A stretch of 64,000 bases of DNA, from assembly GCA_023078555.1 (NCBI GenBank), contig CM041197.1, forward strand, positions 7,534,842 through 7,598,841. Direction: 5' to 3'. This DNA is from Ulva prolifera. Lineage: Eukaryota; Chlorophyta; Ulvophyceae; Ulvales; Ulvaceae. This document shows, one piece after another, positions 543-53,398 of the stretch (its first letter is position 1; each line of letters begins with the position of its first letter). Position numbers and translations under genes: made by a program. The notes below the pieces were generated by a model. That model searched no databases. It saw nothing but the letters and a program-made list of their open reading frames with translations, and had not been told where the DNA came from.

Positions 543-3167
543 GCTGACTTCGGCAAAGGAGGAGGTGCAAGAGGGACAGATGTTGGGCCTGGGCCAGCAC
601 AAGGAGGCGGATCTGCCGGCACCAAGCGCGCGGCCGACTGGGGAGCTCCGGACGGCAAGATCGCGGCCTCACATGAAAGTCCATATCGCCAGTTCCCCCC
701 AGGACCGCCACACTTTGGCCCGCCCGGAACTCTCGCCCCCGGCCCACAACAGCAGGGTGCATACGGCCAGCAGGGGTATGGGGCTGTGCAGCCATGGGCG
801 GCCAGGCGGTCAAGCGGATACAACGCCGCTGAGCTGCGCACGGAACCCACAGTCTCAGTCACCATTGGCTGCAACTGGACCGAGTTTGGGAAGTGCGCTC
901 CCATCCGCACACTAGGCATGCGTGTGTTGCGTGGCATTTTCTCGTAGGGCGTGGACATAGTTCGGATGTGGCCGCAATGGAGCCTGCAGGCCTCCGTTGT
1001 CCTGCATGCGGCACTGCGATCATGCCCTTTGATCTGCAAGCTTCAGCAGTGCATGGCATTTCTGTGCATGATCCATACGTTTGCATTTCTGCAGGGCATC
1101 GAGTGAGGCTGAGACGGCACTGGACAAGCTCGAGGTGGCGCTGGACGGGATGTGCTGCATGGCGGCCCCTTTCTACGGCCAGTACCAGCTACACTCTGCC
1201 GTGCAGAGGCGGGTCGGCGGCCAGGGCATTGTCCAGTTTGCCGCGATCATGAACACACAGGACAAGGTGCGTGCTGCTTGGCTGCCAGTGAAGCACCTGC
1301 ATGCGGCACTGCGCGCTGACAGCAGCGGCCCATTGCCTCCCATACAGCCATGGGCTTTGTACCGATGCCCGCTGCCATGCAGTATTGCTGCTCCCGGATT
1401 GCTGGACCGGTTGTAGATCCCGACTCAAAGCCTCGTCCTCTGTGCATTGATGGCAAAGCGCTAGCCTGTAGATGTGTGTTGCAGCATGGCCTCCCGCCAA
1501 ATCCCCAACAGACCACTGCAATGTTCAAGAATGGGCTGTCTGTCCGCACTCTTTCAAGGAGCCTCGCACGGTGGCCGTTGGTGCAGGCAGCCATCAAGTT
1601 CTACATGGACAAGGCAGCCTTCCAGAGCGAGAGGGACCTGTACGAGGAGCCCGCGCTCAAATCAATGATGCCCGCCACCCTCGCCATCGAGGACAACGCC
1701 TCCGGGGAGCACGCCACGCCCTACGGCTACGCCTTCCCCCCGTTTGTCATCATCGAGTGCGGCCAGAGCCTCGACGAGTGGGCCCGAGACAACGCCAACA
1801 CTGACTTCATCACCATCTTCCAGGTCACCTTCCCTCCGATTGTAGCCTTTGCTTTGTTCTTGGAGCACAGATTGTCACTGCAAGATGGCCGCACCAGCAC
1901 CATAACTGCGGCAGCACCATGTTTGGTTCGGACAAGCACCTTGATGCACCATGACCGCATCTGCCTGCTTGGACACACCTGTGGCTCGACACAACAATCA
2001 ATTCCTGGTCCGTGGTCGATGCACATTCAAAATCATTACAGGGTTGACCCTCAGTCTGTAGCACTGCTGGTGCACGACTCCGTTCCTGTATGCACACGTA
2101 CATCAAGCGAGGGAGTTGGAGGTATTCGAGAGTCTCTCCCACATCCCTCGCTTCATCTTTGGGCGTGCCTGACAGGCATCCTCATGATGTGCAGGCACTG
2201 AGTCACTCGGTCAGAGCTCTGGCGAAGCTGCACGGGACTGGCTATGCCCACCGCGACATCAAGCCCGGCAACATCCTGCGCCGCCCCAAGCAGCACGACT
2301 GGACGCTCATAGACTTTGGCTGCACTTCAAAAATCGGTGCGAGACATACAGGAGGTGCATGTAGTGGCATCGCTGTGCTCCAATGGCCAGCCCATGCTGT
2401 TCTGAAACAAGGCCTTTGGTAATTTAGCCGGCAGCGATCTGGTATTGTTGATCTTGGGATCTGTGAAACTGCATACACATGGCATGAACGGGTGTGTCGC
2501 ACCGAATCTGTAGTATCCTTGGTACAGGTGAGAGACAATCTGTTCTGTGGCGCCTGGAATGTCTTGCAGGACGCCCCATCGTGGCAAATTCGATGATCAG
2601 TGGCCCGCTACAGACGCCACCTTGTTGCGCTGTTATGCAGTGTCAAGTGTGTGATGTCATAGTCCGCACAATCGTTTCAGCATGAGTGCTGCAAATGTGT
2701 GTCTGACACACTCATACGCTGCAGGGTCAACTGCCAGCCTGGCATACTCGCTGAATTATGCTGCTCCGGAGGTGATCCAGGCGCTGGAGAGCGGCCGCCG
2801 CACGGTCCACGTCAACGCCGCCGTTGACATCTGGGCTATCGGCGTCATCGCCTTTGAGCTCCTCGCCGGCGAGCGCGCCTTCCCTGTAGACGGCCTTCCC
2901 TCGGCTGAGACAGAGCAGGCGGCGAAGGATGCGATCATGGGCCGCACGCCGCTGCCGTGGGAGGCTCTATCGGATGGAGCAAATGAGCGCCTTGAGAGAC
3001 TGCGAGGCATGAGGCGCACCGTGCTGAGGTGCTTGGATCGGGACCCCGCCGAACGGCCCAGTGCACAGGCCCTGGTCAACTCATGGGAGCACATCTTCGA
3101 CAATATGAAGACTCGAGGCACAGACTGGGGCAATGCGGCCCTCGAGACGGATCAATCCGACAAGTAG
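543..3167 (+). CDS. Gene A: protein kinase, multi-exon, catalytic motifs intact
   Basis: Kinase-domain gene with likely exons 1095-1266, 1590-1823, 2195-2336 and 2725-3167; all have GT/AG borders and consistent phases. The beta-3 lysine is in AAIKFYMDK (codon 1599-1601). The catalytic loop is HRDIKPGN (2249-2272), the metal-binding motif IDFG (GAC at 2322) and the APE motif YAAPEV. The C-lobe has DIWAIGVIAFELL and ends with a stop at 3165-3167. The loop suggests an active Ser/Thr kinase; the substrate is unknown. The G-rich loop is weak (QRRVGGQGIVQF). An open frame at 543-925, rich in Gly, Pro and Gln, may be a 5' exon, but its donor was not found. Genes B and C share the exon structure, which supports the model. 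The true start codon is uncertain. Confidence 0.8.
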
Positions 3168-5696: not shown

Positions 5697-7356
5697 CTAG
5701 GAGGCAGCTGCATCACGGCTGCCAGTCCAGGCTGTGCTGGCAGTCGCCTGTGATGCAATGCTCAGATCAGGTTGCATGTACGCGGTCAACATCTGCATCC
5801 ATGACTCGCGCAGCTCGGCCGCGGTCGGGCGCAGGCGCGCTTCGCGTTTGAGGCACTGCAGCACAGCCGCCTTGAGGCCCTGTGCAGCGTCCAGCCGCTT
5901 CCGGGCAACCTCCGAGAGGGCCTCCCACGGCAGGGGCGCCTGGCCGAGCATCGCCTGCCGCACCGCATTGTCTGCCGTCTCTGAAGGCAGCCCACGCGTG
6001 GGGAACGCTAAGTGCCCGGTCAACAGTTCGAACATGACGATCCCGAGAGCCCAGATGTCAAAGGCGGCATCGACTTTGATGGAGACTTCTTTGTTGTAGT
6101 AGGCCCTCAATACTTCTGGAGAGCTGTACTTTGGGGAGAACTGGAGACTGGCGGTGGTCCCTGGATGCATTTCAGCTTTGATGGGAGGTGTCCTGAATGT
6201 CTACAAGGGGCCATGTATTCTGACAACATCAACAACCAAGCAGTGTTGGTGGTTGCAGGATGGAGCATGCAGGGCCAACATTGCGTGAGTGTGCTGGTGG
6301 CACTGTGAGCATTACAGGAACAGCAGAAACACGAGCACCACAATGCACTCAGCGCCCTACGATGGCGAAAACACACAATCATCAAACACAGTGTTCAACA
6401 GCAGTGCCGGACAACACCGTTTCAGACAGCAACAGGAGTGGTGCACTCTCACAAGATCAATGGGGGCTGCTGGTACAGTTCAACACCATGAACACAAATG
6501 CAAGCCAGAAGAAATACCCGAGAGAGACCGAGTACTCAGACAGTTGTGCCATTGGAGAGGTGGCATAGCCCGCACCTGCTTTGGCGGCATAGCCAAAGTC
6601 GACAAATGTCCACCGGCGGTCATGCTGCTTACCAATACACAGGATGTTGCCTGGCTTGATGTCACGGTGCACAACCCCGGTGCTGTGGAGCTCCTCGAGT
6701 GCACTGATGACTCCGCCGAGTGCCTGAAGCACTCAGACACCACAGTGTCACCACCGGATTGACGTTCGATACGCTCTTTCCCTACCTCGGCGTCCAGATG
6801 GTGAGTGCCACCAACAGTGGCACGTGTGCACACCCCCACACAGCGGAGGGAAGCAGCACCCTTCGACGGAAACTGCTACCTTAGCCATACTGACCATGCA
6901 GCACTGCCAGACGTGGCGCACACTCCAAGGCAATGTCAGGCAGGCAGCTGTGATGGGAAGCGAGCGAGCAGGTGTGCACGTGAGTCGGGTTATCGGGCCC
7001 GGTCAAATCAAGTAGAACAATTCCCAATATTCAGGTACATTTTCTTGGTGGCAGCCCTGGAAATGCTGCAAAGCGACCCAAAACTGGTGTGCACGCACCG
7101 TGAGCACGGACACCAAGCTGGGGCCCTGGGCGGGATCCGCCGCTGTCATCAAAGTCCACGGCCGCTCGCCCAGCGACTGCCCCTTCTGCATGACCACACA
7201 AGGTGGTATCGGGCAGCTAGCTGCAGGCACGTCTGAGACTGGCAGGCTCTCGCCTTCTTTCAGGAGCAGAGTCGCCGGCATGGCGCCAGGCATCGTGGAG
7301 AAGGCCTCCCTCTCACGCTCGAAGTCAGCAGGCTGCATGTAGAACTTGATTGCCAC
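5697..7356 (-). CDS. Gene B: protein kinase, paralogue of A (kinase exons)
   Basis: Minus-strand kinase domain with exons 7356-7099, 6723-6576 and 6160-5697 (stop). Splice positions and phases match those of gene A exactly. Motifs are VAIKFYMQ (beta-3 lysine), VVHRDIKPGN (HRD at 6669-6661), VDFG, a PEV form of the APE motif (SSPEVLRAY), DIWALGIVMFELL and PLPWEALS. It is therefore probably a catalytically competent Ser/Thr kinase of the same family as A, in inverted (convergent) orientation. The exon bearing the glycine-rich strand upstream of 7356 was not located. A 107-bp MITE sits in the intron immediately after the donor at 7098. Likely 5' exons lie further upstream and are listed separately. 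Confidence 0.8.
6980..7086. mobile_element. hAT-type MITE copy in a gene B intron
   Basis: Copy of the short family seen best at 31000-31101. It shares an internal ATCGGGCCCG block and the end GACCCAAAACTG. A perfect 8-bp target duplication GTGTGCAC flanks it (6972-6979 and 7087-7094). The left inverted repeat has drifted. On the minus strand it begins only about 12 bases into the intron, so the duplicated target overlaps the sequence next to the splice donor. Confidence 0.75.
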
Positions 7357-7732
7357 CTGCACCACACGCGTCTCTCTTCTCATGCGCGATGTGTAATGGA
7401 ATTTGCAGCACGAGCACGTTGTGGTGCGTGCAGAGCATTTTGTAATGGTCTCCCGCATCGCCGAGGTGTCAGAGGAGTCATGTAGAACGACTGCAAATTG
7501 CCACAACCCAGCAATGAGCGTGCCGGCTGCGAGCTGTGTATGTGGAGCCACTCACTGTCAGCTGCAGGAAGATCTCAGTCAGGTGCTCATGCCACCTCAG
7601 CATGCGAATTCAGCACTTGGTACCACCACCGCCGCTGATGGCAGGTGCTGCCGGCATCGAGGGCAGGCGTGGGTGCCCTGTGCTCAGGGTCACCTCTCAA
7701 CAGCACCCGCCAGAACCTGTGATGATATCTAG

Positions 7733-11146: not shown

Positions 11147-14100
11147 TCATGCCGGCCGTGCACGACCTATCTCGAGGAGCATCAAGCCCGATCGATGATA
11201 TGGAAGGCGCGTACCAGGCAATGGCTCGTTGCTCTCAGGGGTGCTCTGAAGGTTCCCCAGGAACTGTCGCACTGACCAGCGGTCTGCAGCATCGAGCGCA
11301 ACAAGGCGCAGTGCAGCCCTGCCCACCTCGCTTGAACGCAGCTCCGCATGCATGCTCTGAGCTGGAGCTCCCCAAGGCGGCACACGGCTGTCCAGGCGCT
11401 CGCCCGGTGCCTGCAAGCCGCTCAGGCCACTCACTCAGCCGATGCTCGGTGCTGCCACAGAAACGTTACGACTTCCCGACGCAATGCAAAAAAGGCATGC
11501 CCGTTTGAAGTAGACTGTACAGTGCAAGCTTCACCATCATGCAGACACCAGCCAATGGAAGCTATGAGAAAGCACGCCAATGCAGCATGGGTGGTCCTCT
11601 ACGAGTAGACCTGAGGCAGCTGCAAATGCTGGAGCCCAGGCAAATGTGAGATGCTGTGGATCTGACTCACAGCACTGCTGGGAGGAGGCCGCAAATGGCG
11701 AATCACTATCCGCGACATTATACCACAGAGGGCCACACCTCGGCTGTCATAGATGACGGGGTGCCGATAGGGCTGTCCTCGCTCAGCAGGTTGCAAGCAA
11801 TCACGCCGAAGGACCAGGCATCTGCCGCCTGGGCCGCAGTCAGCCTCTCCTTCCTGAGATGTGCCAGTACAACCTGCGGCAGCGCAGAGGCTTCAGGAGG
11901 GACAGTTGACTCCACGCTTGCCCCTGCGCTGCACACCATAGAGCAGCTAGCGAATCTCCAGGTGTCATCAGCCTTGAAGTACAACAGTTTCTCGGGTGTG
12001 ATGTTGCGGTGCGCGAAGCCGTGGTCATGAAGTCTGACGATGCAGCTTGCCGCTCCCTCCAGCACCTGCATGACACGGCCTCCTGAAGCTTGCCCAGAGT
12101 CAATCCCTGCACAACTTGGCCGGCCAGCAGAATTCTGAAGCCACATAGACCAGTCGTACAGGTTTGGTTCAGGAGAATGGACCTGGTTCTGACGAGGTTT
12201 TGGCCCAAAGCTTTGCCACAGTCACACAGACTGCAGGTCACTGGGAGCCGAAACCTGGTTATGGCATGGCTATGGAATGCAGATGCGCGGCACCACCCAG
12301 AAATAATGGATGTCTGCATCAGGTTGAAACGCCGACGGCCACACAGCAATCAGTCTAGTCATCCGACTTTGATGCCATGTAGGATACCTTGATGTCGACA
12401 GGTGTCCTCCGAGAGATTCCAGATCCTCGAATCGTGACACTCACAAAGACTGCATGGGGCAATGCACACCTTCCTGATGGCTGTGAGCCTGGCAAGCCGA
12501 TTGGGGTTGCTTGTGCTTGTGGCAGACACATCTCCAGATCGAAGATTCGCATGGAGCCGCGGGCCCTGAGCATCCGATGCAGACGCAGCTCGCACTGCCG
12601 CGAGCACCCTCTCGCACACCTGCACTAGGTTCTCCCCCAGCTGTACGACCATGAAGGGCCGCTTCAGCACGGCGATGGCTTTGCGGCTCTCTGTGTTGGA
12701 CAAGAGATCGCGTTCATCGCGATCCAGATCATTCGCCCCGTATCCCTGCATAAGCACAGACGATCATGGACAATACAGTCTCTTAGGGCAAGAGGTGCAA
12801 CATGCCTGCATCAACTTGGATTTCACATCCTCTTTGCACTCAGATCGCAAATCTCTCTGTGTGGAGGAATGGTTGGCCAGACGAATACACCTCACCAACT
12901 AAAATTTACAGCCAGCAGCGACTGGCGGGTGAAGCCCGCTCTGCCTTGAGCCATATGTGAAAAGGAGCAGATGAAAACATTATCGACTAACGAGCCATTG
13001 CTTCACCACGACGGCACTGGTGTGAGGCAATAGACACAGGTGGGCAGGGCAGAGCCAAGCATGCAGCTGAACGCAGGCCTACACGAAACAGGGATCCACG
13101 AGCTTGATCAAAGACCATGTGGCATCAATCAGGGACTAGCAGCAGGCGCTGCAGCCTTTACACGTGGATGAGAAAGACCGGGCGGAGAGCGTGTTGATAT
13201 AGCACGGCATCGACATGCAGCAAGAGGTGGATGCACACAAAATCGTAGACGCGAGGTAGTAAGCTCCGCAAGTAGGCCTGGTCAGGCAGGCCATATGGTC
13301 GGAGGCGCTGCTGGAACGCTGATTCGTCAGAGAACACCGTCAACGCCACGAGTTCCTGGTCGCTGTCCCCCGGCGGCGGCAGAACTTGAAATACCACAGA
13401 GCGACCTGCATTCAGCGCAGTGCTCACAAAGGACGCGCCACATCCCGCACATCTGAGCACCAACTGCATCAGATTCGATGAAGAGACGCGACGTGGGTCT
13501 GGCTTCTGATAGGCTGGCGAGAGAGTCACGCGCTGCCGGTGTCCAGCATCGAGCACGAAGGGGCATGTGAGAGAAGAACACAAAATTCTGGATCATGACA
13601 AGCGCCGTGTGCATCCACGGCAGAAATCAACGGGGGAGCGGACCTCCGGGCAGCATGCCCCGCACCGGGTCAGGCCACGTGCAGCCGTGCAGCTTCAGCC
13701 CGGCGAGACCCTGCAGGAGGGTGGCCGAGACTTTGGTCTGCTGCAGTTGCTGCAAGTCCCGCAAGCCCACGAACACCGCGTCCTCAAAGTCAAATGCATG
13801 CTTCTGGACCTCCAAGACACCGCGGCCTGCTTCACCGGGGAGGGCAGGCGCCTCGATCGCAGTCGGAAGGAGAGACACGCCTGCTGCTGTGAGGTAGTCC
13901 AGCACAGCGTCTGCAGGGACTGCGTCTGCGTGTGATGCCCAGGGACGAGCGGATGTGACACCCTGCACCGGCACACGCGTCCTCTGTTTCAAACACTGAC
14001 CACATAGCGCATGGCTGCTGCGCTCAGGCCTCGCGAGGTCATAAGTGCAGCTGGCTTCCAAGACCAGTAGCACAGCGCAGAAGCAGCCGGTGGCCACACT

Positions 14101-14880
14101 CCTCGACCTCCCCAACGAGCATGCCCACGCTGAAGGACGGTGAATGAACACTGGTTACAAAACAGCAAGAACGGATATCTGTCGTTGGCAAGGTGCAATG
14201 GTGTCGATGTGTGGAACAAGCAGACAAAACTATAGTGTAGGATGCACTGGATCTAGTGCGGACCCTTTTTCAATCACATCCGACCGTATCGCCAGGTCCA
14301 GCAACGCAACACGCCTTTACGTGATGGGGCCGCTCGAGGTGTGATCTCCACGGCAGCAATGAGCAGAGCATACCTTGTCAGTGGTGGCATCGCTGGTGTC
14401 ACCCGATGCAGGCTGAAGAGGTGGGAGGGGTTTGTAGTCCCTGCTACGAGGCAGCTCTGCAGAGCTGCCAACTGCGGCCGGGCTCGGCAGCAGTACATCG
14501 CCACCAAGGACGGGTGTCGGAGGGTCTCGCATGTCCGTCATGTCCCCACCTTGATCCGCCGAGGTCTCGTCTCCGCCGTGTGCATCTGTGCCGGCCCCGT
14601 GTACAGGACGCGGTACCGCGCCAGGCAACCAAGGCAGCTCAAGTGTCACGGCACATGGCTCTTCGTTGTCAGCTACAACACCACCGCAGTGTGGCATCGT
14701 GCCTGCTTCAGGGAGTTCAGGCAGGAGTTGTGACAGGCGCTCTTCGCAGGCTGAGGAGATGAGGTCAGACAGGGAGGCGTCGAGGCCAGCATCGGCGGTG
14801 GTGGCCATGAAGGCGTCGAGGTCGTGAAGCTGCAGGTACGTGTACCAGTCCAGATCGTCCAGCTGTGAGACCGGCGTGCC
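11147..14880 (-). CDS. Gene C: pseudokinase paralogue of A and B
   Basis: Minus-strand exons, from 5': 14880-14374 (acidic and disordered, with LQLHDLDAF), about 13968-13665, about 13545-13250, about 12745-12380, about 12090-11735 and 11410-11147 (stop). Homology to A and B is clear in the C-lobe (VPPWGAPA against PLPWEALS; DAWSFGVIACNLL) and in the hinge (PFMVVQLGENL). Three catalytic positions are replaced. The beta-3 VAIK reads VALT (ACG at 13338-13340), HRDIKPGN reads HRNITPEK (AAC at 12003-12005), and DFG is replaced by ASC near 11945. The segment after the DFG position continues without the intron that A and B share there. The frame is open, so this looks like a functional pseudokinase rather than a dead copy. 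A C-x-x-C pair (RCAGCGASF) lies just ahead of beta-3. Confidence 0.65.
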
Positions 14881-14982
14881 CTGCACACTCCACGCAACGT
14901 CCCCCTGGCCCATGCATACACACCAGGCAACTGTGGCGCGTGGCCCGGCTGTCGCCAATGATTGGGACTGCGCACCACGTGA

Positions 14983-15298
14983 TGCGCCCATGCATTGATC
15001 AGGTGTTCTGCAGAGCAGACAAGCACGAAGTCTTCAACACATTGAAAGCATGAAGTGCGATAGGAGCCTTAAGCTGTGAAACAATGGATGGAGGGCAATT
15101 CTATAAAGGCGGGTGTGACAATTGCAAGTGACGCCAGCGGGTGCTGCCCTGACGCCCATACATTGATGAGGTGTTCTGCAAAGCAGACCGCGCAGGACGT
15201 CTTCAACGAATGGAAAGCATGAAGTGCGATAGGAGCCTTGAGCCGTGAAGCTTGTGTGACCGTCGCACGCGAGACCAGCGGATGCTGCCCAGACGCGC
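14983..15298. repeat. Two-unit direct tandem repeat, about 168-bp period
   Basis: Unit 1 (from 14983) and unit 2 (from 15151) share long blocks such as AAAGCATGAAGTGCGATAGG, GTGTTCTGC and GACGCCAGCGG/GAGACCAGCGG. The units differ by scattered substitutions and small indels, so the duplication is not recent. It lies upstream of the 14880 acceptor, in presumed intron sequence of gene C. Confidence 0.75.
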
Positions 15299-31100: not shown

Positions 31101-34100
31101 GCTGGTCACATGCTGCTGCACAATGCAAGGCACGCCAACTGTTTTGCTGCATATGACTGTGCGCAGTGACTGGTCGTGATCGCTGCACCGATGGCACCTA
31201 CCAGAACGGAGATGGCTGCTTCTGTGGCCTGTCGCTCTTCCTGTTGTGTGCACGGCGTGTGTGTAAAATAAAGAAAACATGGGTTGCCTTCAACGTATTC
31301 TTAGGAAAACATTGACAACTCCGAAGGGACGGCTCCACACGCCAAAGGAGCTAGCATATCACCTGGTGTGTAGGCCTCTCATTCACGAAGCATATCCCAG
31401 AACAGGGTGTGCATGTGTGTGTGCACCACATGCATCTTCCTGGGTGTCACCAGGTCTGACAGGGTGCCCACGCTATGTGCAGTCCGTCAAGGCCGTGTGG
31501 GTGTTCACCCCATACTTCCCGGGCGGGACAGTCGCCGAAATGATTGAGCGGGTGCGCTCGCTCGCAGACAGCGGAGCTCCCCGCCTCTCCCCCAGGCACC
31601 TCAAACTGTTCTCGCCCACGAGCTCCGGGGGCCTCCCGGCTGCTGCGGAATTCCAGCTGAACTTTGCAGACTTCAGCCTGACGTGCCATGACAGCCCTGA
31701 GGAGGACACCGGGGGCATCCCAGACGAGGATGTGCTGCGATCCATCGCCGTGGAGCTGAACGCTGTGCAAAGAGACCTCAGCGAATCAAAGAACATGTTC
31801 ATGCCTGTCGGGTCGCAGGTGCGTGCCGGTGGTCCCCACTTTGGCATGTCACCCTGACGTCGCCTTGAATCACAACAGGAAGTAACACCTGCGCCCACAA
31901 TGACATCGGCCTGCCATGCATGAGATATTGCCTAGGTGCGCCCACAGGTGCAGTGCAGTGGCAGGTGCTCCGCTGCGGCGCTTGGACGGCGCTGAGCATG
32001 CTCGAAACCATCTTCTATCTTGCAATTGTGGTGCTTCGTCCCCAGGATCGGCGCTCCCGCGGGCACAGCTGGCTGCCTGTAGCCACCCAGTCTGAGTGCC
32101 GCCAGCAGCGCTTCGACGCATGCCCCTTCTCACTTTTAAATGTCGGCCGACTCCCCCACAGACCTCTGGGAATGCCGACAAGCATGCGATGACCTTGAAT
32201 CTGACACAGTCTCTTTGTGAAGGGAATGATCGCAGAAAAGCGAAGACAATTGAGTCAGGTGATCACTTCAATTGTAGACCACGGGTGGCCCGGCCAAGAC
32301 CAGGAGGCTGGGGATTGTTCTCAGGCAATGGCAGAGTGTCGCTTCACGCTGAGCTGGAAGCACAGGCTGCAGTTGATGCGTGACATGATGTACGGACTGG
32401 CGCAAACTCATGCGGGCAGCCTTCGTCCGGGTGAGTCCATCTTGTTGTTCACTCCATACCTCGGTGCTGGAGCCTTGCTTCGGGTCAAGGAACTGCTGAA
32501 GGTGCACTGTGCTGTTCCTGGAACTACAGACAGGCAGGTAGCACCGCAGGCATCAGTTGCATAGCACCGCCACCGCCAGAAAGGTAGCACTTGAAGTCCA
32601 TGTGCTGTCGCTGCACAGCGACCAAACACCACTTGGCATGCTCTTGTCTTTATGGCATGCAATCCCAGGAGCTGCAGTTTTCAACAAAAGCTCTTGTGCC
32701 GGGCCACGAGATCAGATTCTGCCCTTGTGCCCCCAATAACCTATCTACAGTCTTGTGTTGACTGTCATAGTTGCCAGCAGGGCACCTTGTACGCTTCCAG
32801 GGCCTCGCCATGCTCCATGGCCACAAACACCGACCAGCCACTACAAGCAAGTCCATCAGCTGTTCTCAAGTTGTGCCTGGGTGCAGAGTTGAGGGGAGAT
32901 TATGCGTTTTGCCACCTGGATCTGTCCCTCAACAACAGCATGCTGGTGTCTAACTCGGTCGTCCTGATAGACTGGGCAAACGCATGCCGCCGAGATGGTG
33001 ACGCAGGGGAGCACACCACCAGCGCTGCCTGCCACCTGGCAAAGACGATGGTGCGATTTTCATTGCAGATTGTGGCCTTTGTTTTGCAGCCTTGTATCGG
33101 AGCCTTCCTGCTACCCAGAATTAGTGCTCTCCCCATCTTGTCCTAGTAGTTTTGTATCGCAAATGGCATGGGGCTGCTCCTGGGGATGCTCTCGCGCATG
33201 CAGCGCCGAGTTGCCCTGTTGCAGCGGCACATATGAGCTTCAGACTTCTTGTAGTGATGCATGTGCTGCGAGCAGGTGGCAGACAAGCAGCTGCGACAGT
33301 CGGAGGATGCCGCCCCGATCCCAACTGCTGCAAACATCTCCGGCATGAGTCCCGGCCCCGCTGATCTAGACGAGCTTGAGGTGTCGACGGTGTCCTCTCT
33401 CTTTCTCTCAACCCAATGCCATCAACTCCTTCCATTGGTGCACTACACATTGTAAAAAAAAATATCCTGTGACTGCCAGCTGAACCATATACCATGTCAC
33501 CACGCCGAGTTGAGGCAGCAACAGCCAGAATGTCACCCCGGAGCCGCCCTGTGCACCCTGCTGCCTGTTTGTCATGCACCGCGGCATCCAAGGGGACAGC
33601 TCTGCAGCGGCCCTCACGCCGGTGGTCTGCAGGATTCATTGCAGCGGCCAAGCAGCACGCGCACTTGCCAGTGCAGCACCCACCTCGAGACCATCCTGGG
33701 AGCGCCAGAGCTTGTGCCGCTGACTCATGGACGCAGCGGTGACGGTGCGTTCTGCGCATCATGCATGCATGCATGTGCCGCCACACACCAGCTGAGCAAG
33801 CATGTTGCATGGGCAGTGCGCACTGCGTGAGCGCTGCTGTGCTGCCACTTGCTCGGTGTACACACAGCACCGCCGTCGCCACGTGAGGCTGTTCCAGGGG
33901 AGTTGCACACTCTATGCAAATGTTTGGCAGCCGTTTGTTCTGCAAGGGATGTGGGCTCAGTTCATGGTGTACCGTAGTCCTGCGTTGGTGCTGCTCATCA
34001 TTTCCGCGGTGCCGCCCACCTCTCCCTCGCCCTGTTTTTGGCGCCTTTGTTCATATATCACTCTCATTGCCTTTTTATTCTGGCCTCGCTCGCTGGAGGT

Positions 34101-36121: not shown

Positions 36122-39021
36122 TCAGAATTTGGCACACAGGCAACCAAATGACCATCTACTCTGGTGTATCGCCCTTTCTGCTTTCGCCTCCACAGTGTCG
36201 GGGGGCGACCTGGATCCCTGTGGTGTGTTGAATTTGGCGCCGGTGCACTGCAACGGTGGCTGCAGCGTTTCGAGAGCAACCGTGAGGCGGCTGCAGACTT
36301 CAGCGGCTGATGGCCGCTTCAGCGGGTGCAACCTGGTGCAATCGTGCACGAGGGCCGCAAACGGAGCTGGGCAAGCGTCGTTGCATGACGGGCGGTACCC
36401 TGACATTGGAAGCCTGCACACTTTCATAACCACATTCTGACCTGCTCACACCCGACATACTGGCAAAAATAATACATCATGATCAGTTGCTGACATGTAA
36501 GCTCTGGCATCACTGGATGCATGAATGCACACAAGTTCAAAATGCGGTCCACACCTCCAGCTGGCAGACACCTTCGACAGTGCGGAAGCTCGTGGCCATG
36601 CGTGTGAACCACCACTTTGCAGCAATCGACCAGCTCACTTCCGATGGACCAAACATACTGAACACCAGCAGCAGTGCAGACACCATGGATCAGCAGCCCT
36701 GCCATGCAATACACCCTGCCAAACAGATGCAGATGGAACCGCACCTCGTCCGCGTCTCTGCTTCCCACACGCTCAACCAGCGGATGCCGTAGTAGATCTC
36801 CCAGAGGACGATTCCAAGGGAGTAGACCTCGCTGGCGGGCGTGATCTCGCCGCGTTCCAGGGCCTCGGAGGGCAGGTACGCCTGCATCTGTGGCGACGGC
36901 TTTGGGCCTGCCTGCCCCGGCGCGAGGTGCACCGACAGCGCAAAGTCGCAGAGCTTCGCTCGGAAGCGCCTCTCGTCCTGCACACAAGCCAGCTTCCAAA
37001 GGCAGTGGGCGAATACCATGCAGAACACGTACTGGGTGACTCTGTGAAACCGGAGAACAACGCCGTCCGTGACAGACACAAGATATCTGAATGATTGCCA
37101 CGGATGTATCGAGTCAAGAGACGCTGATCCACTGTGTCTAGGCAGGCATAGATCTCTACTATTGGTAGTACTATTGGGCCTTGGCCTGGTTGGATTCAAG
37201 GGGCAATGGTGATTCACAGCTACTAGTAGCGTGTCCGGGACTGGTCGATGGGAAGGTACCGAACGATCGCCGGTCAGCAGCACGTTGCCGGGATTGATGT
37301 TTCCATGGAGGACGCTGCGTCGGTGCATGAAGCTAACAGCCTGTGCGACGTCAAGGGCGGTCAGCAGCACGCAGCGCAGCACGTCCATGGAGCCGCCGGG
37401 GCCGCGTCGCAGCGCCTTGAAGGTGTCGGCAAGCGTGCGAGGTTTTGCGCCTACATTTACCAGGTGGTCCCGCAGCGACCCTGGACGCCATAGGCTGTGA
37501 GAGCGTCCTGCGACAGCGGTGGCACCGCAGATCAATGTCCTGTGCAGCAGCGGGCTGTCGCCTGGATCCCCTCTCACTGTCTCAGTCAATTTGGAACGGA
37601 CAATCCAACATTGTCACGCAGCTTAGAAACTACAGCTGTTTCTTTCAAGCAAACCACAAATAACCCACGGGCTGAAAAAGGGGTACATGTACAGGACGGA
37701 TGACTGGAGAGGTAGCAGCATGCGTACGGAGCTGGAGGCTTTGGATTTATAAATGCACGGCAGGGCACTGCGCACCGAGTTCGCATTGCTCCATCGCGAT
37801 GCACATCTGAAGCCTCACGCGCATCGGCCCCAGCTCGGCGACTCCACTGGACAATGGTGAGGCACTACGCGAGCCCGGAATTCCAGTCCAAAAATGCTTA
37901 CCCCGTCTCTGTTTCATCTGCTTCAGGCTTGCAGTGCCACTGTCAGCACCAGCATGCGATGCCCCGCCTTCTACTTGGAGCGCGAGATTGTGTGCAGTCA
38001 TCTCCAGCTGTGCTCCAGAAACGGGGTCGAGGCAGCGCGAGTATGCCCAATACATGGTGACGATATTCTTGTGCTTGAGGAAGCGGTGGAGGGAGGGCTC
38101 GCTGAGGCGGAGGCAGTCACGGAAGGCGGGTGCTGCACCGGAGACATACGTGACAGGCGTGGTCATCTTGAGTACAAATAAGGGCTTCATTCCATGGCCA
38201 AGGCTGCTACGTATACGCTTGCCCTGCAGAATCAGATGGAGGATCGCAGCAATCTTGTCTGTTGTCCAGATTGAGCGATGTCACGCAAGTCGGAATGCTG
38301 CGTAGTTACATGCTGTGAGCTGTGAAAACGACAGTGCTCATGAATGCTGAATTGAACAGGCTGCAGCAGGCAGTGCCACAGGTTCTGGGTGACAATATTA
38401 ATCGGCCCCAGTCTATAGCTAGAGAAGTACGAGTGCAAGCGACCACAATTTCTGCTGCATGCTGGAACCGGTGATGCTTGACCTTTGATGATTGAGTGGG
38501 TGACACTTCCCACCTACTGAGAAGACGCAAGAAGGGAACCATCACACGATACGCGCGTAAGCACTGTCGGTCAACAATCACGTAGCTGACCGGAGGCACA
38601 CCTGCCTTGTCAGTGTGCAGATATGCAAATCGCTGAGACTTCCTTTTCGCAGAAGCTTCGACATGGTGTAAATGCTCTCATGGTGTTCCCCAATGCCGTT
38701 CCGGATCCCCAGAGACGCCAGCATGGCTGCTGTGCCGATAGTGGTCTTGTGGACGGGCACGGCTGCAACCTCCCCAGAGCCCGCAACATCAGGCCACGGC
38801 TCGGCTGGATTGCTAGACGTCAAGGTCCGTGACCATTGGCTTTCAGAGCCAAGTTGCTCCAAGATGGATTGATCGGCGCCCCTTTTGCTGACGTCACAGT
38901 TTGACTTTGCATTTGCCGCGGCAGATGGTCCCTGCATTTCGCCGTCTGCAGGCGGACGGACCCTCCAGTCAATGTGCCACGCATTGCACAGCTGCCACCA
39001 TTGCCAAACCAACACATGCAT
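36122..39021 (-). CDS. Gene E, 3' part: TKL-like kinase domain with HGN and DFA
   Basis: Minus-strand kinase exons: about 39021-38595, 38190-37776, 37480 to about 37250, 36977-36778 and about 36433-36122 (stop). The beta-3 lysine lies in FVLKM (38167-38169). The hinge, rebuilt across a clean phase-1 junction, reads MEQCELGSLRDHL, typical of tyrosine-kinase-like (TKL) kinases. The catalytic loop is VLHGNINPGNVLL, with Asn at the Asp position (37299-37301). The DFG motif is DFA (36939-36947). EVYSLGIVLWEI and HPLKRPSAAEV mark the C-lobe. Lys and the metal-binding Asp remain, but loss of the catalytic Asp suggests a pseudokinase or very weak enzyme. The glycine loop is also poor (LLRKGSLSDLH). 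Convergent with gene F. Confidence 0.7.
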
Positions 39022-39389
39022 GTGGACTGCATGCGAACTGACACTGTTGATGACTCATGCCTACTCCATGTACATAAGCTGCCAACCGAACTAGGCCTGC
39101 CGGCACCGCGCCATTGCAGATGTTCCTGTTCAAAAGCTAGATCTTTGCAACACCGTACCACTGCGAGTACGTAGTCAGAGTTCACATTTGACCTTGCCAA
39201 TATATATATCCCGGACATTTGGGTTCACATGTGGCATGTGCACCTTCAAGTTGTGCACTCCTGAGACAGGAAGCCTCTCAGAAGACACACTGGCAGTAGA
39301 AAGCTGATGCTGCACACTAATACATCACAACATAGCCAGTGTGATATGCATCATGTGCCAGCATGCCGTGTGACGCAGCACGTGCGCCG

Positions 39390-42300
39390 TTTAAGGTAGG
39401 AACTACCTCGGAACACCGCCCATGAGCATGACTCCATGGCCAGGTCAACCATGCCCTGGTCAGCATGTTCACCACAGCAGACTTCTTCAAGCATCTTGTA
39501 CTCTGCTGTGGGCAAAATCGCTGGTATGCAGCTGGAAGACTGATCGGAGGAAATCTCTTGAGAGACTGGTAGTTCGAGAAATCCGTCGACATCATGCAGC
39601 TGCAGGAACTCCCGGCAATCTGGAACTTCTGTCTGTGTCACTGGAAATCCCTGCAAATTATAGCCGATGGCGCTTTGTATTGCCTGTACAGCAGCGAGGC
39701 ACAGATGCTTGTTTGATCTGTAGATCCGCGTGCTTGCCTGCAGCATGCTGCCACTGACAGATCACACAATGTTGCTACACACCACTGGCATGCAATGGGC
39801 TCAAGGCCAAGGCAATACTGCGCATTTCAACAAAGCAGCCTTCATCTTCATAGATATCACCTCCTGCCCCGCAACGTTGACCTCCACACACCCTCAGGAC
39901 AGGCAAGATCATATGCATGCCATGTCCGTTGGCTGTGGAGGCTTTGCAAACTTAGCATGCATTCGTACATGCATGTATTCGTACCATTTTAGCATGCCCG
40001 AACTGTTCCCAGGTATGGCCGGGACAACGATGGCTAAATCACGCGCATCCGCTATTGCATACACATATTTACAGTTCGGCTGACAGTCCGTCGAGTCATT
40101 GCAGAAGCCGGCCAATCGAAAGTATTGATCGTGAGAAATCCTCATCGTCGACAGGCGAGTGTATAATTATGACTATAAGCACATGGGAGTCTGTGTGGTG
40201 AACCGACTTCGAATCGGTCGATCGAAACGACTTACTTCGGCATATGTGGTCCCGTTCAATGGGAGGCCTCAAGTTGAGTCGGAGTTGTCCAACAAGATAC
40301 GGCTCCGAGCTGAGTCAGTAAATTCAGATTTACTCTACTTGACTTCGATCGCAACTGGCAGGGAAAGGGCGCACAGGTGCCCCTGCTCAGATGTCAGCAT
40401 GCATGAACTCTGTGCCGTCACCGCGACGGTGTGATCGGCCAATATTGATATGATCAGATGATCGGCCAGATGTCATGCAGAACACAATGCTATGAACAGC
40501 GTGGACAAACAGGCATCCTGACCCATGAAGGTGACAATGCCAATCGTCTGGCCCTAGCCATCAACACGATATGTGTCAGTCATGCACAGAGTCACTGCCA
40601 TCATGATGTACTGATGGCCCACAGCAGACAGCCCTCACTCAGCTTGGAAGCGCTATTTTAGCTAGACACACATGACTTTCACTGTGTGGCCAGATTCAGG
40701 GGAAGACGGTACCGGCAGGGGCAAGCTCTCAACGAAGCTAGCGACTTTAGAAGACTCCCAGAACATTTCACGTCCAAGTTTGGCCGCAACAGCATTCATT
40801 GTGTGCAGGGCATTGCTCTTTTGCCGATCCGGGGCTACCTGCATCGCAACGCAGGTGTCAGCAAACTCTCTTGAGACAGGCTGGGCCTGCATTATGACCA
40901 GACATCATGAACGCACTTCCTGCTCCACTTGACCGCCTGTGGTTTCGCTTTCAGGGGCCCGGTTGGCCTTGGGGGAAGGAAGGAAGGACTGCAACTCGAC
41001 CGAATCCTGCAGAGAGCAAAAATCGCTCAGTGACTAGAACACGTGTGACAGCATGTGTGTCAAGTGAAGGTGAGGTTCACAGTGTACGCCGTCCACTGTC
41101 TCAACACAAGCCGGACAATTGGTGTACATTGTGGACACATGATTAATCACAAGTTTGGTCGAGTTGCAAGGAGCCGTGGCCACCATTGGCTGCGACGCCC
41201 CATGCAGCTGTTGGCAAGGCGGCTCAATGTCAGGTTCCCAGTGAGCTCCACATGTACATGCACATGGCTCTGCTGCAAAGGGTACCTTTGAGGCTCGGGT
41301 GGTTTGAACACCATGGTGTGGCCAGCCGCAGACGTATCACAGAACCCACCAGTTCAAGTCCACGTGTAAAAGCAGCCTCCCATATGCAAAGTCACTTGGA
41401 GCTGCACAGCGTTCTGAGGATGAACTCGCATTTATGAGCTCATGGCCCACCGGGTCGTGGCATGCAGTAGACACACCGCCATGCATGCCTCATCGAACTC
41501 CGCCTCATGTACATCGCAGGCGTCCACCGCCATCTGTCCGCCACACTTGTTGCACAGAATGGACCCGTTGTCTTCAGCCTGTACAGGAGTCCTAGTTTCC
41601 GTTGGCCTCTCTGGAACCTAAAACTGCCGTGTGTGTGACTTAGTCTAGGTAGCTGTAGTCGCAGTCACAGTTCAGGCCCCAACTGCGAATTCATGAGTGA
41701 GATTTGGACAGATACTGAAGCAACAGTACCCATGTCTAACAGCACACACAGACACACACAGACTGAGAGACTGAAATACACACAGACGCAGATACACATA
41801 GACACACGGACAAATTTAAACAAACACACACTCTCACAGGCACACAGACACAGAGGTTGGTATCACAAGCTGCTCGCTCGCCCAGTGCAGCGCCGCCGTG
41901 CAGTGTGCAGTTGACCACACTGGAGCAGTCTGCATCACAGGTAGCAACATGCTCATGCATCCTCCACGCGGGATATGGCACGCCAGGTGTGGCTTGAGCG
42001 CACTTTGTGGCCGTTCTGCCGGTATGCCAGGGCCACCAGGCCCTCCCTGGAGGTCGCAGCTCTGCAGCATGTCCTTTCCAGCGGCACCTGGGGCCCGTCC
42101 GGTCTGTACAGCTTTTGTGTCTCCGGGCACTTGCCAACAGTGCGTACCTGCGGGGCTTCGGGAGTCTGCAGACGGAAGACTAGGCCCTGTCACTGACTAA
42201 CTGTTCATACCATCGTTGATCTGGTAGACGCTGGCTTGAACAGCAGCGCTGCATGCAGATGTGTGCGAGAGTGGCATTGGCCACGTTGAGTAGAGACTTG

Positions 42301-49539: not shown

Positions 49540-52500
49540 TATATTACAAAAGAGTGAACGGGAGAAAACAAATACTGAAACCGAATCTCATCCGAATCAA
49601 CTGCAACATACACTCACACACACACGAACACTACAACCGCACTCACAACTCAGTCCGGCAGGATCGCGTCCTCCAGGCCCGCATCATATCGCAACCCTTG
49701 CTCCCGAGAGATGACAAGCCCAGACTTCCGATACATATCCGCATTGCCGCGCTGCAATGACACCGACAACACCCGCAGCGCCCACTGGACAAACGCGCCT
49801 TTGGAGATGCGCCCACTGGCAGCGGCCACATCCCCCAACTGACCGACGAACCTCACGGCAGCCTTGCCCATGAAGCCACACGATTCGACCGCAAACGGAA
49901 CAAACCGGAACGCGGCATGGTCAGGCACGTCCCGCCGAAAGCGGTCCCGCTTCCTGTCCTCCGCCCGCTCCGCCGTCGCACCCGTCTCCCGCGCCGCAGC
50001 GGCCACGTATGAGGCCGCCGGCGCATGCGTGACCACGACGTCCACGGCCGCCATCTCCAGGCGCGGCATGACCACGACGACGTCCCCGCGGCGATTCAGC
50101 TCAACACCCGCGCCCCTCGCGAGGGCACGGTAGAGCGGCTCCAGGGCAGACTGCAGTCCGGCGTAAGAGGCGACCAGGCGCAAGGCACGAGCCAGGTTAT
50201 CATGGCGCATCTGGGTCTCCTTTGCCACCTTCTTGCAGACCATGGCGTGGTCTGGTTCGGCGGCAACACCTGCACTGCATTTGCACGGAGGGGGGGGGAC
50301 GTCCGTCGGGACGCGGAATCGCAGGCGGTGCCACACCGCCAGGACAAACATGTCGTCGCCCATGGTGAGAACGCCGCCCGGCAGAGCGGAGAGGAAGGCG
50401 CCTGCAGGCCCCCCCGAAGCGCTCCTGAGCCACGCCGCTTCCCGCCTGCCGGCCGGCGTGTCGAGGTCGATGCCCTGTAGCACGAGTGAGGCCGCATGGT
50501 CCGCGACCGCGCGCCCCACCTCGCGCTGGGCCGCTAGCAGCTTGCCCGAGACGAACTCGTCCGGCAGGTCACGGGCATCCGCCTCCCACCCCAGCAGCTC
50601 ATGCAGCTCGTCGAACAAGCCCTGCCAGCGCTGCAACAGACTGCCCCGGCTGTGGCCGCGGAGGGGGCGGAGCAGGTCCGGGCAGCCGGCGAGGTTGCGC
50701 TCGGCCGTGCCGGCCCCCGACAGGAAAGCCGCGTCAGCGACGCTGTCCACCAGCATCGTCAGTCCGAGCCCGCCATGCCTGACAGGGGACATCAGCCGGT
50801 AAGCAAGCCGCCGCGTCTCAGCGTCAGTGGCCGAGTTGTCAGACGCGGCAGCAGCCTCCGCAACCTCAGGCGGCAGGCACAGGATTGCGGCGGCACCGCG
50901 CCACACAGCGGCCTCCGCCCTGCGCATGTGCGGCTCGAGCACGGCATACGGCACCGTCCGCATCAGGTGCGTCATGCGCACACTCAGGGACACACGCAGC
51001 AGGAGGAACTGCGCCTGCACTGAGAGCGGGATGCGCACGAGGGTCTCGACGAGGCCCTCGACCTCGCGCGCCCGCGCGTCCAGCACCTCGGCGACGTACT
51101 CCGGGGTGCCCAGCGGCGTGCCGACAGCCTTGAAGCCCGCGTGCAGATCCCGAATGCCGAGCTCTGCGGCCACGGCGGCCGCCGCCTCGGCGTCGGCGCT
51201 GTGGACGCCGCATTTTGCCGGGTTCACCTCAAGCCCAATGCTGCGCACGCCGTCAGCTTCCACGCACAGCCGCCGGAACACGGCAGCTCCAGCCGCGAGG
51301 TCGCCCGCAATGCTGATGTCGTCCAGGTACGCCACCACAGGTGCGCCGGCGCCTGACGCGTCGACGCGCTCCAAGACAGGCTGCAGGGTCAACGCAAACA
51401 GGAGGGGGCCCAGGGGGTCACCTTGGCGGACGCCACGTTGGCAGAGGACCGGCTCGACGTCCTCCGGAGCGCCCGCGATGTGCAGCGGGGTCCCGGCGCC
51501 ATACGCCCACTGCGTGAAGGGCAGCAGCGCCGGGGCACGCTCCTTCACGGCAGCGAACATGGCCGCGCGGTCGATGCAGTTGAAGGCGTTCTTCATGTCG
51601 ACCGAGAACACCGAAGCGCCCTCGGCCAGAGCAGAAGACAGGCCGTGCACGACTGTCTCGGTCCCGCCCCGTGTGCCAACGCCGACCTGCAGCGGCGCCA
51701 GGCTCTCTCCGATGTCGCGGCCGTACTCGCGCAGGGCGCACACTGCCGCGAACCGGTACCAGGTCTCCCCCACCGCGATCGGCCGCGTGCCACCGTCCGG
51801 CTTCGCCAGGCCGATGAGGAGCCCGTCCAGCAGGAACGTCTCCCGTGGCAGCATGCCGGACAGCATGTGGTTGACGACCGCCAGCAGCGCGTCGGTGGCT
51901 GCGTCCGAGGATTGGCATGCTGCGCAGATCATCTCGAACGTCCAGCCGGACGGGCCGGCCGACGACCCTCGATGGTGTGCGCTCACGGCGGCCACCGCCG
52001 CCACCAGCGCCTCCCGTGTCAGGCACAGAGCGGGGACATCCGGGTTCGGCTCCAGAGGGACCGGCGGATCTGCTGGCGGGAACAATGCGCGCAGACCGGC
52101 TTGGACCTCCGGGGACCGTGCATCTGCGGGCTTGCCATCCTGCAATCCGCGGCCAGCTTTGTGAATGGAGCGCTTGATGCGAAAGCATCTGTCGATGTGT
52201 TGCGCCCGCAGCTGATCTGCAGACATGGGAGCTTTGCGCTTCCCGGGCCAGCGGCCGGGCGGCGTGTCCTCCCACATCTCCACGGGCAGCCCGAGGGCGT
52301 AGTCGCGGCACCGCCCTGCCGCCGCTTTCCCAGAGCGCCGCCCCCTGCTGTACGCTAGCAGGCGCATGGGCAGGCGCATGAGCTCCTCGAAAGCGGCAAC
52401 AACCTCCTCTCGCGCGCTGTCGCCGCGCGCATGCGTGCACGCGTCGGCCACCAGCTCCCACACCCTGGTGCACGACTCGGCCCACCCCAGCCGGGCGGCT

Positions 52501-53398
52501 GGGGGCACATGCTGCGGCAGGCGCAGCCGTGGGGCCGCGTTGGCCCGCTGCACTGGCGGGGCAGATGCAGCCGCACGGAGCCCGGCCTGTCTGCGGGGGC
52601 CCGCCCGCTGCGACTGGCTACCTGCTCCCCGTCCCTTGCCTTTCTTCTTACCTCCCCGCCGGGCACGTTGCTGCTTGGCGTTGCCGCCCGTGCCCCCACT
52701 GGCCTGCGCAGGGGGGGGTGCGCCGGCGGCTGCTGCGGCTTGGCGATGTGGCCGGCGGGTAGCAGACTGCTTGGCTGCTGCGCCTGCGAGGCCAGGAGGC
52801 GGGGGAAGGGGCGGGGAAGGGGTGTCGGCGGAGGCGGGCGGGGGTGGATGGTGGCACTGTGCAGTGCCGTGAGCCCTGTCGTGCCGGTCGTTGCTGGTGG
52901 CTGGCGGCTGCTGAGGGGCAGCCGTGGCGAGCTGAGTCTCACCAGGCACCACATTCAGCGCCGATTTTACCTGTTTGCTTGTATCTGCAGAGAGATGAGC
53001 CTCGGCAGCTGTCCCGCTGGCAGGTGCTGCGCGCCGGCGCTTGGGCTGTGGAGACCCGCGCGGTGACTCGCGCTGCACGACTGCGAGCTGTCCATTGTTG
53101 CAGTTAACAACTTCATTAGTATCTAGGATGCTACGTTGGTCTGTAATCAATAGGCTAGGTCGCACGGGCGACTGCGAAGCGTGCTGGCGGTTCAGGTCGC
53201 TCAGCTTTGCCTTTGACGGCTCCTTCCGCTTCGGCTTGCCCATGGGACCCTAGCATTGCAGATATGGCCTAACAAGTACTATCAAATGCCAAGCGCCGAG
53301 CCTCCGGGGGCTCGACTGCCATGCCGTGGACGAGGTCAATCGACACGACCAGCAACAGACCAGCAACTTGAGTGTGATAGACCGCGCAGACCAAATTG
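49540..53398 (-). mobile_element. Apparently full-length RLE-type non-LTR retrotransposon (LINE)
   Basis: A 3859-bp element on the minus strand bounded by a perfect 13-bp target duplication (49527-49539 and 53399-53411). It has a 5' untranslated region of about 155 bases, a single 1197-codon ORF, and a 3' untranslated region of about 110 bases ending in CTCTTTTGTAATATAT. The ORF has reverse transcriptase and a C-terminal restriction-like endonuclease, so it belongs with R2/NeSL/Utopia-like lineages rather than APE-type LINEs such as L1 or Zepp (family knowledge). The clean duplication and intact ORF suggest recent insertion. TGTAA near the 3' end matches the chlorophyte poly(A) signal. Tail-only copies lie at higher coordinates. 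Confidence 0.88.
49650..53243 (-). CDS. LINE ORF: reverse transcriptase with CCHC knuckle and restriction-like endonuclease
   Basis: 1197 residues, ATG at 53243-53241. Residues 1 to about 245 are low-complexity, Pro/Ala/Arg-rich with a KKKGKGRG basic patch, presumably for RNA binding. The reverse transcriptase spans roughly 450-700: FSVDMKNAF (Asp549), RQGDPLGPLLFAL, and YLDD at 639-642, less usual than YADD. A C-x-C-x9-H-x3-C knuckle lies at Cys987, Cys989, His999 and Cys1003. It is followed by an endonuclease with RRGD (Asp1054), AVDVVV (Asp1068) and DRKRD (Lys1098), the PD-(D/E)XK pattern. Together these make and integrate cDNA by target-primed reverse transcription. No separate ORF1, OTU or Ulp protease domain is seen. 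Motifs are intact, so the protein is plausibly active. The 445-residue frame on the opposite strand is a GC-driven shadow. Confidence 0.9.
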   Translation of the reverse strand: MGKPKRKEPSKAKLSDLNRQHASQSPVRPSLLITDQRSILDTNEVVNCNNGQLAVVQRESPRGSPQPKRRRAAPASGTAAEAHLSADTSKQVKSALNVVPGETQLATAAPQQPPATSNDRHDRAHGTAQCHHPPPPASADTPSPPLPPPPGLAGAAAKQSATRRPHRQAAAAAGAPPPAQASGGTGGNAKQQRARRGGKKKGKGRGAGSQSQRAGPRRQAGLRAAASAPPVQRANAAPRLRLPQHVPPAARLGWAESCTRVWELVADACTHARGDSAREEVVAAFEELMRLPMRLLAYSRGRRSGKAAAGRCRDYALGLPVEMWEDTPPGRWPGKRKAPMSADQLRAQHIDRCFRIKRSIHKAGRGLQDGKPADARSPEVQAGLRALFPPADPPVPLEPNPDVPALCLTREALVAAVAAVSAHHRGSSAGPSGWTFEMICAACQSSDAATDALLAVVNHMLSGMLPRETFLLDGLLIGLAKPDGGTRPIAVGETWYRFAAVCALREYGRDIGESLAPLQVGVGTRGGTETVVHGLSSALAEGASVFSVDMKNAFNCIDRAAMFAAVKERAPALLPFTQWAYGAGTPLHIAGAPEDVEPVLCQRGVRQGDPLGPLLFALTLQPVLERVDASGAGAPVVAYLDDISIAGDLAAGAAVFRRLCVEADGVRSIGLEVNPAKCGVHSADAEAAAAVAAELGIRDLHAGFKAVGTPLGTPEYVAEVLDARAREVEGLVETLVRIPLSVQAQFLLLRVSLSVRMTHLMRTVPYAVLEPHMRRAEAAVWRGAAAILCLPPEVAEAAAASDNSATDAETRRLAYRLMSPVRHGGLGLTMLVDSVADAAFLSGAGTAERNLAGCPDLLRPLRGHSRGSLLQRWQGLFDELHELLGWEADARDLPDEFVSGKLLAAQREVGRAVADHAASLVLQGIDLDTPAGRREAAWLRSASGGPAGAFLSALPGGVLTMGDDMFVLAVWHRLRFRVPTDVPPPPCKCSAGVAAEPDHAMVCKKVAKETQMRHDNLARALRLVASYAGLQSALEPLYRALARGAGVELNRRGDVVVVMPRLEMAAVDVVVTHAPAASYVAAAARETGATAERAEDRKRDRFRRDVPDHAAFRFVPFAVESCGFMGKAAVRFVGQLGDVAAASGRISKGAFVQWALRVLSVSLQRGNADMYRKSGLVISREQGLRYDAGLEDAILPD

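Follow-up and report, generated by a model that had tools for sequence, protein, structure and literature searches.

The window, the whole 64,000-nucleotide stretch of Ulva prolifera DNA that was analysed, encodes intact and degenerate kinase genes. Paralogue A (1575..3164, plus strand) has kinase exons at 1575-1823, 2195-2338 and 2724-3164 with AAIK, HRD and DFG. Paralogue B (5700..7368, minus strand) has kinase exons at 7099-7368, 6574-6723 and 5700-6161 with VAIK, HRD and DFG. All three signatures are thus present in both genes, which are intact kinases, as a first-pass annotation of this DNA had proposed. Gene C (11147-14880) and a second degenerate kinase, gene D (36122..39650), are encoded on the minus strand. 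Another kinase-like frame on the plus strand (32595-33146) contains HLDLSLNN and LIDWANA and gives weak Choline_kinase and APH matches below the cut-off. A 1199-residue open frame on the minus strand (49650-53249) resembles the reverse transcriptase of what we take to be a LINE element.

Gene C is predicted to comprise six exons, each open and in phase 0, with borders set by frame and homology; all five introns are GT-AG. Exon 1 (14374..14880) encodes an N-terminal part whose opening reads GTPVSQ...LQLHDLDAF; it has no transmembrane segment and matches gene D weakly. The terminus of exon 2 (13666..13962) resembles by eye the segment that precedes the N-lobe in relatives. Exon 3 (13239..13505) encodes the N-lobe, where the likeness to relatives starts at about 13409 and the VAIK site reads VALT (13338-13349). 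Exon 4 (12470..12745) has a hinge-like FMVVQLGENL, judged by eye against relatives. Exon 5 (11739..12065), the catalytic exon, carries HRN (12003-12011), SCS at the DFG site (11940-11948), LPQ at the APE site and a conserved DAW in helix F. The last exon (11147..11410) encodes PWG, the C-lobe end DRWSVRQF, whose Arg appears by eye to be kept, and the stop codon. Position 14880 is the first base past a CAG acceptor and the stop codon ends at 11147, so the extent and the open exons first reported for C hold. An ATG-bearing open frame continues to 14991, and the start position is therefore provisional. Queried against the alga's own genome, exon 2 found no second match at E ≤1 and exon 3 none at E ≤10. 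An imperfect direct repeat with a spacing of 168-169 (window positions 14985-15080 and 15153-15249) lies just upstream of exon 1.

Residues required for phosphotransfer are replaced throughout C. In the N-lobe register given by aligned relatives, the VAIK Lys is Thr, and the catalytic exon alignment places Asn at the HRD Asp, both as first described. The ASC originally read at the DFG site is one residue off: WTLIDFG aligns with WRFASCS via an invariant Trp four residues earlier (alignment A1), which puts SCS in register. A pseudokinase is defined by loss of the VAIK Lys, the HRD Asp or the DFG Asp, and C has lost all three. In addition, the catalytic-loop Lys and Asn are replaced by Thr and Lys, the Glu of APE is gone, and the helix-C Glu appears to be Arg (FQSERDLY in A versus FQQRLRPY in C, aligned by eye). 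These extra losses make the C-lobe less intact than the first-pass annotation held; the hinge, as far as can be judged by eye, is kept, and the C-lobe landmarks are kept in part. The F-helix Asp and Trp are retained. Pro207, Asp220 and Trp222 (PKA numbering) are present in 103/103 aligned rows, C included. When the three frames of C's strand (11147-15100) were searched for motifs resembling HRD, DFG and VAIK, two matches appeared, both outside kinase context, and thus no alternative exon that would restore a motif in place; in A and B alike, the same search recovers each of the three. The predicted loss of catalysis in C is well supported.

The catalytic exon frame of C alone matches Pfam Pkinase at 17.3 bits (E 0.0033), below the 31.7 cut-off, and its kinship to kinases follows from relatives that do match Pkinase. 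Against the alga's own 88.9 Mb genome, this exon finds 128 places at E ≤1, itself included, the best other at 6.8e-10; the weakest of the 127 others may be chance matches or other kinases. The family comprises no fewer than 100 related catalytic exons. It is probably larger, since two other members used as genome queries gave at least 150 matches each (344 and 356 candidates). We fetched 100 catalytic exons from a list of 104, 20 of which were read with 6 kb, and aligned them with A, B and C to give 103 rows. The listed loci outside the sample are C5:7345471, C5:7394078, C5:7615839 and C8:5982775; three C23 matches, one short C2 match and matches weaker than E 0.00124, except C7:647625, are off the list. 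The profile that aligned the 103 rows derives from alignment A1, which holds C twice (row 10).

Large kinase-exon arrays occur at C5:7.2-8.7 Mb and C7:0.56-0.74 Mb, and many of the loci read at length there have membrane segments. Identical scores at C23:14361 and 23617 and at C7:626288 and 635548 may mean that C23 duplicates part of C7 or represents a second haplotype. A receptor-class query matched 2075 solved sequences; the 60 listed include PknB, PknA, AGC, CAMK and other kinases, and none of these 60 is named an RLK. IMG/VR yielded no relatives of the catalytic exon of C or of alignment A1.

The HRD Asp, the catalytic-loop Asn and the DFG Asp are all kept in 76 of the 103 rows, A and B included, and at least one is lost in the other 27, a share that may over-represent degenerate members because the sampled exons came from matches to C. 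All three are lost in four rows: C, L033, L119 and L113. L113 has an in-frame stop in its catalytic exon and may therefore be a broken gene. We looked for the N-lobe of 13 further degenerate members, namely L027, L033, L040 and ten fetched for this purpose, and could read all but that of L113. The VAIK Lys is kept in all 12 readable N-lobes and the helix-C Glu in 11, with an apparent Ala in L040 (by eye). The VAIK Lys is likewise kept in every receptor-family locus with a readable N-lobe (28 of 30 were readable). Among the members seen, C alone lacks the VAIK Lys, and it alone lacks this Lys together with the helix-C Glu.

Mapped on a tree built with the ten motif columns removed, the degenerate label needs at least 9 changes compared with 24 in shuffles. 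Degeneracy is thus clustered and seems to have arisen several times, on an 86-column tree in which many forks are unresolved and the starred branches alone force one change only. Among close pairs (dS 0.03-0.6, dN ≤0.2, a dN filter that pulls dN/dS down), ten are degenerate-degenerate, C not among them, with dN/dS of 0.17-0.39 (median 0.29). The ratio is below 1 at P <0.03 (Fisher test) in eight of these ten, which come from three clusters and include three pairs with L113 (62 codons), the member with the stop. The medians are 0.24 for 125 intact pairs and 0.19 for six mixed pairs, all with L104. Without the dN filter (dS <1.2, mostly distant pairs), the medians rise to 0.58 (degenerate), 0.54 (mixed) and 0.38 (intact). 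Purifying selection is seen among close pairs of degenerate members other than C.

C had been described as a paralogue of A and B. Kinase kinship stands, with 26-28% identity to both genes. A clear descent from them does not, since the exon structure of C is that of another group of family members, here called the receptor class, to which its identity reaches at most 34%. The reading frame of A and B is broken after the DFG segment and before APE, and then stays open through the PWE segment. In the receptor class, a frame change or stop precedes PWE in 17 of the 18 loci whose last exon could be read. Of the 20 loci examined, two gave no last-exon match, and L031 is the one locus contiguous into PWE. 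C has the receptor-class arrangement, an interruption before the last exon; as in receptor-class kinases such as L023, L033 and L040, its catalytic exon is contiguous from HRD to helix F and breaks before PWE. These loci were picked by a contiguous catalytic exon, so their lack of a DFG-APE intron is partly a selection effect.

Exon structure is the best evidence on the origin of C, because trees cannot place it. A test on a 28-row subset rejected neither of two placements: C beside L033, L048 and L057 (p-AU 0.46), or C beside A and B, with a log-likelihood lower by 5.34 (p-AU 0.344). The Asn position holds Lys in four rows, namely C, L033, L048 and L057. The predicted exon structure points to C belonging with the receptor class rather than clearly with A or B.

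A segment with hydropathy of at least 2.4 lies within 4.2 kb upstream in 18 of the 20 receptor loci; of 58 control tiles taken from the window, five have one. Such a segment with three or more basic residues (Arg or Lys) among the next twelve occurs in 15/20 loci and 0/58 tiles. On account of this upstream membrane segment, the 18 loci resemble receptor-like kinases. C differs from these 18: no transmembrane segment was detected in the 4.2 kb upstream of its catalytic exon, where the top hydropathy is 1.73. By the same measure the top values are 1.93 for B, 1.62 for D and 2.05 for A, the last over 2194 bases only. A wider scan to 22000 found a hydrophobic stretch (2.23) at 19150, 4 kb upstream of exon 1, in a frame not tied to C. 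The outer parts of five receptor loci gave no Pfam identity; the candidate matches Beta_helix (L040, E 0.03) and DUF6251 (L027, E 0.02) are both below the cut-off and were rejected.

Gene D is another type of kinase (Pfam PK_Tyr_Ser-Thr, E 3.9e-11) with HGN and DFA at its catalytic sites. Its relative L138, 31 kb past the window end, matches it at 81% over the DFG segment and has HGD and DFG, as does L139. Over 149 sites, D carries 18 private residues and L138 three, and D evolves fast. The N-terminal exon of C is similar to a segment of D (39477-39650) that lies 25 kb away. The match has an E value of 3.9e-5 in the window and of 0.0096 and 0.0078 genome-wide, one per direction, and the similar part is preceded in each gene by CAG, a possible acceptor. 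We found no third copy of this exon in the genome at E ≤10 and no exon of this type in a 4 kb stretch of L138. The match is short and its genome-wide E values are modest, which makes it a lead only.

The first-pass annotation suggested that C is under selection for a scaffold or decoy role. Its frames retain a coding base pattern, with a GC1-GC2 difference of 0.191 against a null of 0.030 ± 0.047 (8 of 20,000 draws as strong). Exon 5 alone is weak in this respect (0.064, with 0.114 in another frame). When six receptor-class catalytic exons were simulated to decay neutrally to 35% identity, 11.7% of 1800 runs had no stop, and the absence of a stop in the catalytic exon of C, taken alone, is not significant. 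Such decay needs about 167 substitutions, over which the chance of no frameshift is 0.035, 0.0038 and 1.4e-5 at assumed indel:substitution ratios of 0.03, 0.05 and 0.1. The intact frame of C is therefore improbable under neutral decay unless indels are rare. The closest relative of C is at most 34% identical, and none is close enough for dN/dS. A fair reading is that most of C's divergence passed under frame-keeping selection; the gene may or may not still be alive.

A serious alternative is that C is a dying gene that diverged under selection and lost its use only recently, so that its frame is still open. We consider this quite possible, though less than an even chance. Its branch is the longest of 103, with 4.28 changes per column compared with a median of 0.21 and 1.69 for the next longest. 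The third-position GC of its catalytic exon is low, at 0.697 versus 0.873 in intact and 0.884 in degenerate members (lowest 0.621), and fits simulated neutral decay (0.667 ± 0.063). Over all exons it is 0.66 in C, 0.80 in A, 0.735 in B and 0.705 in D, and 0.545 in the introns of C. Almost all catalytic and nucleotide-contact residues of C are altered, L113, which has likewise lost all three residues, carries a stop, and the neighbouring D, with its excess of private residues, is also drifting. Set against these signs, the six exons of C are free of stops, frameshifts and broken splice sites, and the gene retains its coding base pattern and its structural residues.

An exon model that is wrong or fuses two genes, with a different actual transcript, is improbable. 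The borders do follow from frame and homology and the start is provisional. Stop-free stretches of at least 100 residues are also common (244 in the window), and for this reason we rejected stop-free length alone as evidence for C. However, homology pins the motif positions along one contiguous exon, the break before the last exon matches relatives, and no frame of C's strand offers an alternative motif in kinase context.

EphB6 and EphA10 have, like C, lost VAIK, HRD and DFG and kept the F-helix Asp, and in EphB6 the helix-C Glu is Arg, as it appears to be in C (PMC7586955). They differ in being animal receptor tyrosine kinases, and EphB6 binds nucleotide experimentally (PMC7586955). That C would likewise bind nucleotide in an unusual way or keep residual chemistry is very unlikely: its losses resemble the EphB6 column (VAIQ, helix-C Arg, HRS, RLG) in Table 1 of PMC7586955, but where C has Thr, the VAIK Lys is present in each of the 12 other degenerate members whose N-lobe could be read, and C is thus the member least likely to bind ATP.

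We propose, at close to even confidence, that C is a soluble, catalytically dead kinase-fold protein that came from the receptor-like kinase class and acts by binding. The proposal starts from what is directly observed: lost motifs in open exons, membership of the kinase family, an exon structure of the receptor type and no transmembrane segment found near the kinase exons. A receptor-like member would have become C by losing its membrane anchor and its phosphotransfer residues. The protein would still be made, with a C-lobe that still folds. It could hold or titrate active kinases, whether soluble or of the receptor kind, A and B for instance, or it may act as bait beside them. The long N-terminal part could provide a second contact surface. 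Of the scaffold or decoy claim, loss of catalysis and the open frame stand on the motifs and exons; the role itself is no more than plausible, given relatives of C too distant for a measure of selection and the signs of decay. We regard a scaffold or decoy as possible, and as slightly more likely than recent decay.

The Arabidopsis ZRK protein ZED1 (RLCK XII) has, like C, Asn for the HRD Asp (PMC6634424) and is a pseudokinase within the ZRK gene cluster (PMC6634424, PMC9539561). Such plant pseudokinases beside receptor kinases offer the nearest analogy to C, and binding to an active kinase and an NLR, as in the ZED1/ZRK adaptor system, is for C an analogy only. C is found in an alga, and a similar way of working does not imply kinship with ZED1 at the family level, nor with EphB6. 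We further speculate that this alga has built a separate kinase-pseudokinase network, in which dead members of a receptor-kinase family at least 100 strong arise repeatedly and are kept, and in which C and D, from different kinase families, carry a similar N-terminal exon that is absent elsewhere in the genome and marks soluble adaptors. As a whole this is unlikely.

About 20% of Arabidopsis RLCKs are given as pseudokinases in PMC6634424. The table of a review puts RLKs at about 1 to 4 per chlorophyte (PMC10868138), a count that may differ by definition from the at least 100 found here, since the family of C may or may not belong to RLK/Pelle. Gains and losses of kinase families are reported for Trebouxia (PMC11523091). 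Our literature search found no paper on such a kinase family in green algae. Pseudokinases are already known; less usual is their setting here, among at least 100 related catalytic exons in a green-lineage genome. That lineage is borne out by LHCII-type light-harvesting proteins of the genome, which match chlorophyll a-b binding proteins. Since degenerate members make up roughly one in four sampled exons and evolve under constraint in close pairs, the rate at which dead kinases arise and their persistence can be asked within one family. As its extreme case, C would be a test of the boundary between pseudokinase and pseudogene.
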